From Shouchella rhizosphaerae (GTDB taxonomy: Bacteria > Bacillota > Bacilli > Bacillales > Bacillaceae_D), in contig NZ_FRBS01000002.1 in the NCBI RefSeq assembly GCF_900142675.1, positions 186,001 to 250,000 on the forward strand: a stretch of 64,000 nucleotides of DNA, read 5' to 3'. The position numbers and the translations under genes are program-made. The notes under the pieces are model-generated. The model was not told where the DNA came from, made no database searches, and worked only from the letters and a program-made list of their open reading frames with translations. Position 1 is the stretch's first letter. Each line of letters opens with the position of its first letter. Of this stretch, positions 50,881 through 53,315 are shown piece by piece.

Positions 50881-52129
50881 TTTTTGGACGATAGTCGGCC
50901 ATACTGCGGGAAGCAGGTTAAAGGCAAAATCGTTTATCATTTCTACAGTGGTCATCATGGCGATTGTCATTATTGCCACAAACATTTCATCAATCATCTC
51001 TGCCTTTTCAGGCGATGAGGAAAATGAAGTCCAGCAAGTCGCCATTATCGATGAAACCGAAAACGCAGGGGACGTGGCAACGATACTTGCAACATCTCCT
51101 GAGGAATCGTTGTATTCATTTGCAGTCGTAGAAGATGCATCATTGAAAGCAACTCTCGAAAGCGCCCGAGACGGCGACTATGATTATGTCCTTCATTTAA
51201 GCGGATCGCAAAGTGAATTAGACGCCACACTCTATGGCGGGGGCGATGATTACGAAGCGGTAGCTGCGATTGAGCAGGAAGTGCAGCGCGTCAAAGAAGC
51301 CGTATTAACGAGTGCGCTTAATTTAAGCGAGTCTGACCTTGCCGCTATTTTTGAACCAATCTCCTTTGCACAGGAACCTTTGGAAGAAGGGGCTGCGATA
51401 GAGACGGAAGAATCGCAAATGCAAGCGTCCTTTACTGTCTTAGGCGTGACCTATGTGTTGTTTTTTATCATTGTTTCTTTTGGTGTGATGATAGCCACAG
51501 AGGTAGCCGTCGAAAAGTCCTCTCGTGTGATGGAACTGATTGTTTCTAGCGTCAATCCGGTCGTGCAAATGTTCGGCAAGCTAGTCGGCATTGGCCTTGT
51601 CGGCGTCGTCAATATGGTTGCGATTGTCGCTGCTTTAGCAATTGGCATGTTGATTGGCGGGAATGAGATTGGCAATCTTTTAAGCGGCGATTTGATTGAC
51701 ATGAGCTTGCTCGGTTACGCGTTTTTCTTAACGATTCTTGGCTATTTCTTGTTTGGCGGCATTGCGGCTACATTGGGCGCCCTCGTCAGCCGAACGGAAG
51801 ACGTCAATTCATCGATACAGCCACTGACCTTTATCGCCATGGCTGGATTCTTTATCGTTTCATTTGGCTTAAGCACTCCAGATGCGCCATTTATTACGGT
51901 TGCCTCCTACATTCCATTTTTTACACCACAGCTTTTGACGATGCGTATTGGCATGGGCGTCATTGCTGGCTGGGAAATTGCGCTCTTATTTGCGCTTTTA
52001 ATAGCAAGTGTGGTCGCCGTCAATATTTTGGCTGCCCGTGTGTATAAAGGCGGGGTTTTGATGTATGGCAAAGTGTCGATGAAAGAAGGCATAAAGCAAG
52101 CGTTGGCGTTGTCGAAAAAGGAAAAGTAA
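50873..52129 (+). CDS. ABC-2 type permease (NatB/YhaP-like)
   Basis: A 418-residue permease; ATG 50873 follows GGGAGGCGGGG. One N-terminal helix, a large extracytoplasmic domain (about 45-185) and five or six C-terminal helices with TEVAVEKSSRVMELIVSSV, as in NatB/YhaP. It works with the ATPase directly upstream, probably exporting sodium or a toxic compound. Confidence 0.87.
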   Translation: MNNFWTIVGHTAGSRLKAKSFIISTVVIMAIVIIATNISSIISAFSGDEENEVQQVAIIDETENAGDVATILATSPEESLYSFAVVEDASLKATLESARDGDYDYVLHLSGSQSELDATLYGGGDDYEAVAAIEQEVQRVKEAVLTSALNLSESDLAAIFEPISFAQEPLEEGAAIETEESQMQASFTVLGVTYVLFFIIVSFGVMIATEVAVEKSSRVMELIVSSVNPVVQMFGKLVGIGLVGVVNMVAIVAALAIGMLIGGNEIGNLLSGDLIDMSLLGYAFFLTILGYFLFGGIAATLGALVSRTEDVNSSIQPLTFIAMAGFFIVSFGLSTPDAPFITVASYIPFFTPQLLTMRIGMGVIAGWEIALLFALLIASVVAVNILAARVYKGGVLMYGKVSMKEGIKQALALSKKEK

Positions 52130-52210
52130 GCGCGGCAAAGGTTTGTCCTGAAGATACGAGTATGGTAAGATGGAAATATTGTGAATCGAGGCAGAAAGGA
52201 GGCGGATGAT

Positions 52211-52492
52211 GTGATTGATCTTATAATGGAGTTGCCGATGTTATGGGTCAGCGTAGCCCCTGTCATGGTTGTGGTTGCGATGGTTGCCTATGAAAATTTT
52301 AAGCTCCGTCGCATGCACATGCGGATGAAGCGTACAGTCCATGACACGGATAAGACAGGCTGTGTGGACATGACTCCAGTCCGCCCCTTGGCGCTGTGGG
52401 CGCGGCCAAAAATTCCTTATTTCCGCGACAAAGGCTGCCAAGACGATGATGGTCCTTACCCTTGTTGCATGCACCAACAGATAGCTGCATAG
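52211..52492 (+). CDS. Membrane-anchored leader ORF before yidC2 (MifM-like arrest peptide candidate)
   Basis: A 93-codon frame. GTG 52211 has AAAGGAGG 8 nt upstream, a better site than many real genes here. Residues about 4-26 are one membrane segment, then a basic stretch (KLRRMHMRMKR), then a tail with Arg58, Trp63, WARPKIPYFRDKG, a three-Asp run (78-80) and CC. No database family is recognised. It ends 25 nt before yidC2 and its last codons pair with the yidC2 ribosome binding site. B. subtilis has the unrelated-looking but similarly built MifM (95 residues, N-terminal membrane segment, essential Arg/Trp, acidic run) ahead of yidC2. Translation is well supported; arrest is inference. Confidence 0.65.
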   Translation: MIDLIMELPMLWVSVAPVMVVVAMVAYENFKLRRMHMRMKRTVHDTDKTGCVDMTPVRPLALWARPKIPYFRDKGCQDDDGPYPCCMHQQIAA

Positions 52493-52506
52493 ACAACAAA
52501 GGGAGG
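52454..52506 (+). promoter_or_regulatory. Stem that buries the yidC2 ribosome binding site
   Basis: CCCTTGTTG (52459-52467) pairs with CAACAAAGGG (52494-52503) with one bulged A; CC (52454-52455) can add to GG (52505-52506). The 3' arm contains GGGAGG, the yidC2 site. The 5' arm covers codons 82-86 of the upstream ORF, just after its Asp run, so a ribosome paused there would free the site. Confidence 0.7.
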
Positions 52507-52517
52507 AAAAGAAAGAA

Positions 52518-53315
52518 ATGAATAAAAAGAAAGTTATGCTTACGCTTAGCGTAGTAATGGTTGCTTTCGTTTTAGCAGCCTGTAACACGAATGAACCGAT
52601 CACAGCTGAATCAACTGGTTTTTGGAACTCATTTTTCGTCTACCCGATGTCATTTTTGATTACCTTTTTTTCTGATTTGACAGGGGGACATTTTGGTTGG
52701 GGCATCATTATTGTGACGATTTTGATCCGTTTGCTGATTTTGCCCCTTGCATTAAAGTCGCAAAAGAGCACACGGGCGATGCAGGTGCTCCGTCCTGAAA
52801 TGCAAGAAATTCAGGAGAAAATGAAAAAAGCACAAGGCAATCCAGAAAAACAACGGGAAGTACAAGCCGAGATGTTGAGTCTTTATCAAAAACATGGGGT
52901 GAATCCTGCTGCTGGCTGTTTGCCTGCACTTGTGCAAATTCCAATCGTAATGGCACTTTATTTTGCGATTATGCGGACCGAAGAAATTGGCGTGGGCCCG
53001 GCTAGCGCGTTCCTATGGTTTAACTTAGGCAGCCCTGACTATATTTTGCCTGTCATTGCCGGCATTACGACGTTTGTCCAGTTTAAAATGTCTATGAGCC
53101 AAATGCCAGCGAACCCATTGGGCGAAGGCATGCCGAATCCAATGAACATCATGCTTTACATTATGCCAGTTATGATCGTGATTGCTGGAATTACATTGCC
53201 ATCTGCGCTTGCTCTTTATTGGGTAGTTGGTAACTTGTTTATGATTGTTCAAACGTACTTTATTATTGTCCGCCCTAATATGACAAAAGAAGAAGTGCAA
53301 AAAGACAAAGCGTAA
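52518..53315 (+). CDS. yidC2: Membrane protein insertase YidC2 (OxaA2)
   Basis: A 265-residue Oxa1/YidC-family insertase made as a lipoprotein (VLAAC, Cys22). Five membrane segments follow, with the hydrophilic-groove Arg in ILIRLLILPLALKSQKS (about 73-90) and the cytoplasmic coiled hairpin EMQEIQEKMKKAQGNPEKQR. GGGAGGAAAAG precedes the ATG. It is not next to rnpA/jag, so it is the second copy rather than spoIIIJ; in B. subtilis that copy (YqjG) is controlled by an upstream arrest peptide. Confidence 0.88.
   Translation: MNKKKVMLTLSVVMVAFVLAACNTNEPITAESTGFWNSFFVYPMSFLITFFSDLTGGHFGWGIIIVTILIRLLILPLALKSQKSTRAMQVLRPEMQEIQEKMKKAQGNPEKQREVQAEMLSLYQKHGVNPAAGCLPALVQIPIVMALYFAIMRTEEIGVGPASAFLWFNLGSPDYILPVIAGITTFVQFKMSMSQMPANPLGEGMPNPMNIMLYIMPVMIVIAGITLPSALALYWVVGNLFMIVQTYFIIVRPNMTKEEVQKDKA

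Follow-up and report, generated by a model that had tools for sequence, protein, structure and literature searches.

Results

An open reading frame and a predicted masked ribosome-binding site at yidC2

The window analyzed here is a 64,000-nucleotide stretch of the Shouchella rhizosphaerae genome (contig NZ_FRBS01000002.1), in which a short upstream ORF (uORF) stands before yidC2, one of two YidC genes in this genome. The uORF opens with a GTG at 52211 preceded by AAGGAGG, runs for 93 codons to a TAG at 52490-52492, and leaves 25 nt between its stop and the yidC2 ATG at 52518 (Table 1). The other YidC gene, proposed to be SpoIIIJ, adjoins frames that read as rnpA and jag, the usual place of SpoIIIJ. 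An earlier interpretation made from the DNA letters alone, referred to below as the sequence-only reading, had described this ORF with its binding site and spacing, an N-terminal membrane helix, an Asp run at residues 78-80, and a stem that joins late codons of the ORF to a 3' arm holding the yidC2 site GGGAGG. We recovered all of these: the start, stop, AAGGAGG and spacing agree, the helix appears as a hydrophobic segment by hydropathy, the Asp run is in place, and the stem folds better than dinucleotide-shuffled sequence.

Table 1. Features of the yidC2 locus, in window coordinates.
Feature	Position	Strand	Evidence
Upstream ORF, proposed YidC-monitoring arrest peptide	52211..52492	+	93 codons plus stop; family homologs; pN/pS
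N-terminal hydrophobic segment, residues 8-26	52232..52288	+	Hydropathy and charges
Conserved core R65-P66-K67-I68-P69	52403..52417	+	Alignment of 37 proteins
Conserved Asp73, between core and acidic run	52427..52429	+	36/37 aligned proteins
Acidic run Asp78-Asp80, inferred arrest site	52442..52450	+	Last acidic residue at 80-84 in 37/37
Stem 5' arm (CCCTTGTTG), within codons 83-86	52459..52467	+	Folding; silent change suppressed in relatives
Stem 3' arm (CAACAAAGGG)	52494..52503	+	Folding, arm re-pairing, pair types
yidC2 ribosome-binding site GGGAGG, masked by predicted stem	52501..52506	+	Predicted unpaired probability
yidC2, second membrane insertase gene	52518..53315	+	PF02096 match, E 3e-54

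Pfam and NCBIfam gave no match to the window ORF, and 20 family members (set A2) searched against the same collections gave only single-member matches, at E 0.0031 or worse. The NCBIfam result says little, because one MifM homolog and three other uORFs are likewise without a fitting model there. Rfam returned nothing at E <= 1 across 52000-52700, and a promoter and terminator scan gave counts near those of shuffles. Profile matches to three sodium-channel chains in the PDB (E >= 0.5) were taken as chance.

Distribution of the uORF

Relatives of the ORF are present in 12 of 13 Shouchella genomes. The named species are S. clausii, S. tritolerans, S. xiaoxiensis, S. oshimensis, S. miscanthi, and S. 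shacheensis, and Bacillus sp. JCM 19041 is likewise among the named records with a match. Identity to the window ORF is 97-98% in S. clausii and S. tritolerans and 43-53% in genus genomes outside the S. clausii group. Across the taxonomic family, a profile search gave matches at E <= 1 in 40 of 41 genomes, and inspection placed the ORF directly before yidC2 in 38 of the 41 (12 from the genus, one of them frame-broken, and 26 others), the position expected of YidC/Sec-monitoring arrest peptides, whose ORFs stand directly upstream of a sec or yidC gene. Beyond the family, no hit of the genus profile among 199 order genomes was better than E 0.009. The alignment used below comprises 37 proteins from 11 genus and 26 family loci; the frame-broken draft, JCM 19041 (L013, L113), was left out. 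In that assembly the frame breaks just past the conserved core, likely through a sequencing error, since the ORF of its near relative L008 is intact. It is the sole frameshift encountered, frameshifts in the tails of relatives being what the sequence-only reading had held would speak against it.

Some genomes do without this uORF. In G004, a Shouchella genome of 2.6 Mb, yidC2 is kept and the upstream ORF and stem are lost together, so ORF-based control is dispensable. By eye, a different short inverted repeat was spotted before yidC2 in this genome (L128). The second-yidC uORFs of G028 and G034 score 20.5 and 22.3 bits with a MifM-like profile and 1.5 and 1.1 bits with the profile of the family described here, which suggests that the whole uORF-yidC2 unit was replaced or transferred; in G034 the assembly shows an interrupted frame for the second yidC. 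The MifM-like uORFs of both genomes (L129, L131) carry a KRKESPEDDGD tail.

In other families of the order, 36 of 40 second-yidC loci, hand-picked among the matches listed and judged by eye, have a uORF of 87-132 codons (counted from the first possible start) with a hydrophobic beginning and acidic residues near the end. Their cores are varied (RKIP, RKKP, RKEC, and WI-RK among L068-L107). Two of the four remaining loci are probably spoIIIJ, since the frames before them read as rnpA and yidD; the other two had no ORF that passed the filter. Regulation of second yidC genes by a uORF thus looks very common in the order.

A conserved C-terminal core and acidic run

The N-terminal localization signal, judged by hydropathy only, is found throughout the family: all 37 proteins have a hydrophobic 19-mer with a mean hydropathy of 1.75-2.51. 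Net charge in the window ORF is -2 before this segment and +5 in the 15 residues after it, which would fit an N-out/C-in topology. In 10 of the 37 relatives the residues that follow the segment carry no net positive charge, and there the N-out/C-in pattern is not clear.

Toward the C terminus, the dipeptide P-K is invariant (37/37), followed by I in 34 proteins and a second P in 35, while residue 65 varies (R in 28, K in 5, H in 3, L in 1). The gap between Asp73 and the acidic run is four residues in 33 of the 37 (2-5 overall), and the Asp/Glu run begins with D at one shared column in 35. The consensus for the family, which we call RPKIP after its core, is accordingly [R/K/H]-P-K-I-P-x3-D, then usually four residues, then an Asp/Glu run. 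Synonymous codons vary within the core, the invariant prolines being encoded by up to four codons. The last acidic residue lies 49-62 residues from the hydrophobic segment (median 56), so the conserved C-terminal sequence stands more than 30 residues after the signal; for MifM, PMC10987492 gives a median signal-to-arrest-site distance of 54, by another measuring method. The tail conservation proposed as a check by the sequence-only reading is present, with the core kept at the protein level and silent sites near saturation. Arg58 and Trp63, which it had named in the tail, are not conserved: Trp63 occurs in 5 of the 37 proteins, four of them from the S. clausii group, and Arg58 in 17. It had further predicted a Pro/Cys-rich arrest sequence different from that of MifM. 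The difference from MifM stands (no detectable homology), but the Pro/Cys-rich end is not the conserved part; it follows Asp80 only in the S. clausii group, together with a change of frame.

Selection shifts from protein to RNA at the acidic run

We compared substitution rates in 13 pairs (26 of the 37 sequences), with region borders set by us. The pN/pS ratio was 0.25 for the membrane part, 0.45 for the spacer, 0.22 for the core, and 0.72 for the end beyond the acidic run, with pS at 0.69, 0.69, 0.61, and 0.40, respectively. Because silent sites are near saturation in the first three regions, the true ratios there are lower. Amino-acid change is suppressed up to the acidic run; past it, the suppressed changes are the silent ones, because the final codons double as an arm of the RNA stem that masks the yidC2 site. 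By these sequence comparisons, the acidic run is where protein-level constraint relaxes and RNA-level constraint starts. In MifM, ribosomes are described as stopping from D89, the last D of the DEED run, onward (PMC4423224).

The reading frame across the stem arm points the same way. In 19 of 19 other loci with the exact TTGTTG arm, translation crosses it in the same frame, with ends such as LVV or FVV. The four S. clausii-group genomes use a different frame, which yields PCCMHQxIAA. There the RNA arm is kept and the peptide end changed, which argues that the residues past the acidic run would matter little for arrest and that the Pro/Cys-rich end is a by-product.

A predicted stem covers the yidC2 site

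The stem folds at -19.3 kcal/mol; 200 dinucleotide shuffles average -10.2 (z -4.12), and none of them folds as well. Under a harder control, in which the binding site was kept and the rest shuffled, 2% of 200 sequences folded as well as the native sequence. Across 31 unique loci, the summed energy of the native arm pairings was -469.9, against a mean of -347.1 (sd 12.9) when arms were re-paired among loci, and none of 20,000 permutations was as low. Taken one by one, 10 of the 31 native pairs beat 95% of swaps and 21 do not, because most loci share the TTGTTG/CAACAA core. Up to five pair types occur per stem position in these loci; the registers for this count come from each sequence's own best duplex and lean towards pairing, so the re-pairing permutation is the actual test. 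A MAFFT alignment of 28 of the 31 stem regions misaligned some binding sites, and no counts were taken from it. Stem covariation, another check named in the sequence-only reading, is seen: the stem is kept with compensatory changes and, in the reduced genome G004, is lost together with the ORF.

In the window, the GGAGG of the yidC2 site has a predicted unpaired probability of 0.10 in the free RNA versus 0.98-1.0 with a ribosome on the acidic run. For the 32 distinct regions that represent all 37 loci, the mean for the site is 0.14 when free and 0.63-0.68 with a ribosome on the acidic run, the rise appearing in 31 or 32 of the 32 depending on the footprint assumed. A ribosome placed 15 codons earlier gives a mean of only 0.19. 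We also folded shuffled leaders for 32 of the 37 sequences (five were missed by the start-codon spacing rule). Folding energy reached p <= 0.05 in 25 of 32, but site pairing did so in only 4, the window's own value being 0.065. A stem that masks the downstream site and is opened by a stalled ribosome is therefore present in silico, with a per-sequence masking test that is weak (4/32).

Discussion

We consider it highly probable that the uORF encodes a YidC-monitoring arrest peptide that works in the manner of MifM. This reading builds on four observations: the peptide is conserved, it keeps its position, selection passes from the protein level to the RNA level at the acidic run, and the stem covaries. 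Stalling, release by insertion, and the sensing of SpoIIIJ are the parts that we infer, and the suggestion in the sequence-only reading of an insertase sensor belonging to this lineage gains support to that extent from conservation, position, and stem. In the proposed mechanism, SpoIIIJ/YidC would normally insert the N-terminal segment into the membrane during synthesis of the tail. The pull of insertion would free the ribosome, translation would terminate, the stem would close, and yidC2 would be off. Should insertion fail, the core [R/K/H]PKIPx3D in the tunnel and the Asp/Glu run at the peptidyl transferase center would hold the ribosome on the acidic codons, presumably with the last of them in the P site. 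The held ribosome would then cover the 5' arm, leaving the yidC2 site free and yidC2 on.

The arrangement closely resembles that of MifM-yidC2 (yqjG) in B. subtilis, which shares the uORF, the N-terminal membrane segment, the acidic run, C-terminal arrest (predicted here), and a stem masking the yidC2 site. The B. subtilis peptide is described as having 95 codons, an acidic run at residues 86-89, and such a stem (PMC6037786, PMC13183943, PMC4423224). The arrest determinants differ. MifM needs R69, I70, W73, I74, M80, and N81 plus DEED, where the RPKIP family has its own core, and the MifM arrest residues, RIxxWI (as given in PMC7897499) and M-N before the acidic run, occur in 0 of 37 RPKIP proteins; we checked the MifM tail letters against chain 3j9w_AZ. 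With the last acidic codon placed in the P site, P66-P69 would stand 11-14 residues from the peptidyl transferase center, between W73-I74 (15-16) and M80-N81 (8-9) of MifM, a matter of arithmetic and not of structure. In one Bacillus branch (L120-L124) the MifM tail itself is altered (WISKVIRMKRSSNDDED), a naturally occurring variation on the known arrest core.

Whether the family has been seen before is less clear. Using connected-component profile clustering and a filter for an acidic run within residues 70-100, Fujiwara and colleagues obtained a MifM cluster that comprises 572 proteins, drawn from 592 Firmicutes genomes (PMC10987492). The acidic run ends at residues 80-84 in all 37 RPKIP proteins, within that range by position and not by the published sliding-window charge score. 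The cluster may already include the RPKIP family, and its "undescribed" status in the sequence-only reading is uncertain. Within the open-licence PMC literature, we found no paper on an RPKIP motif, a clausii MifM, or a Shouchella YidC arrest peptide, and when alkaliphile names were joined with MifM, none of the matches listed (best 15 of 145) included MifM.

By its features the RPKIP ORF would be placed as working like MifM, whereas by sequence it falls outside MifM, and this raises a question of ancestry that leaves the mechanism the same. The chances are about even that the ORF is MifM itself, inherited vertically from one shared ancestral peptide, with a tail that has drifted past recognition. 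Place, length, hydrophobic segment, spacing, and acidic end are all alike, and the uORFs at 36 of the 40 hand-picked second-yidC loci of other families include intermediate-looking tails (RKIP, RKKP, RKEC). A profile of the MifM-like RKC group also scores one of the 37 RPKIP proteins at 15.0 bits, against 14.4 for the best shuffle, a weak link. However, the RPKIP-family profile placed none of 10 Bacillus MifM homologs above the best of 200 block-shuffled sequences, the MifM profile placed none of the 37 RPKIP proteins above its best shuffle, and hhalign gave a probability of 1.3%. The same method connects the RPKIP profile with the RKIP group (6/6) and the RKC profile with MifM (10/10); these groups were chosen by eye from 35 of the 36 order uORFs, that of L100 being omitted as a near duplicate. 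In an unrooted YidC tree built without an outgroup, moreover, a 100/98 branch separates the YidC2 partners of MifM from those of the RPKIP family. Because the tree is unrooted, one ancient yidC duplication may explain it as well as two. We regard it as possible, without leaning towards it, that the RPKIP ORFs are a second, independently evolved YidC-monitoring family of the order Bacillales, which has an arrest code and a YidC2 branch of its own, converged on the MifM circuit, and lets the peptide and RNA switches abut at the inferred stall codon.

The hosts of the RPKIP-type ORF include alkaliphiles, and an arrest peptide in such cells might sense some other membrane state, such as that of the Sec translocon or the sodium or proton gradient, in place of YidC activity. 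We think this unlikely, as the gene under control encodes a YidC paralog, and a spacer this short and narrow in range is like those of the YidC monitors described in PMC10987492. That the ORF is instead a small membrane protein acting as such, for example as a YidC2 partner, with the stem as mere translational coupling, is very improbable: its hydrophobic segment is indeed conserved, but conservation is strongest in a short C-terminal core whose place beside the stem is fixed, the spacer drifts, and the end past the acidic run is free to change frame.

For the preferred reading, a YidC-monitoring arrest peptide, parallels extend beyond MifM. CliM (uC_KYxIW) of the Clostridia is likewise described as a uORF before a yidC gene, with a membrane segment, C-terminal arrest, and an mRNA structure restraining the downstream gene; its own traits are the motif KYxIW and a chain compacted in the tunnel (PMC13183943). 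The KYxIW motif is found in 0 of 37 RPKIP proteins. ApcA of the Actinobacteria is also an arrest peptide encoded before yidC (PMC13183943, PMC7897499), distinguished by an RAPG motif (PMC10987492) and a single stall site (PMC7897499). Unlike in ApcA, the inferred stall site follows the RPKIP core by 11-15 residues, and RAPP/RAPG-like C-terminal motifs, including the RAPP-like motif of RAPP/RAGP-type (RQH) arrest peptides, are found in none of the 37 proteins.

By a 2026 count, three arrest peptides had been identified upstream of yidC, namely MifM, ApcA, and CliM (PMC13183943). A fourth arrest code in MifM's own order, available in 37 aligned natural variants, would help to show which tunnel contacts are needed. 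The frame change in the S. clausii group suggests, without mutagenesis, where the role of the peptide ends and that of the RNA begins. Such a code would also help to show how sensors of this kind replace one another, as G028 and G034 carry the MifM-like type instead.
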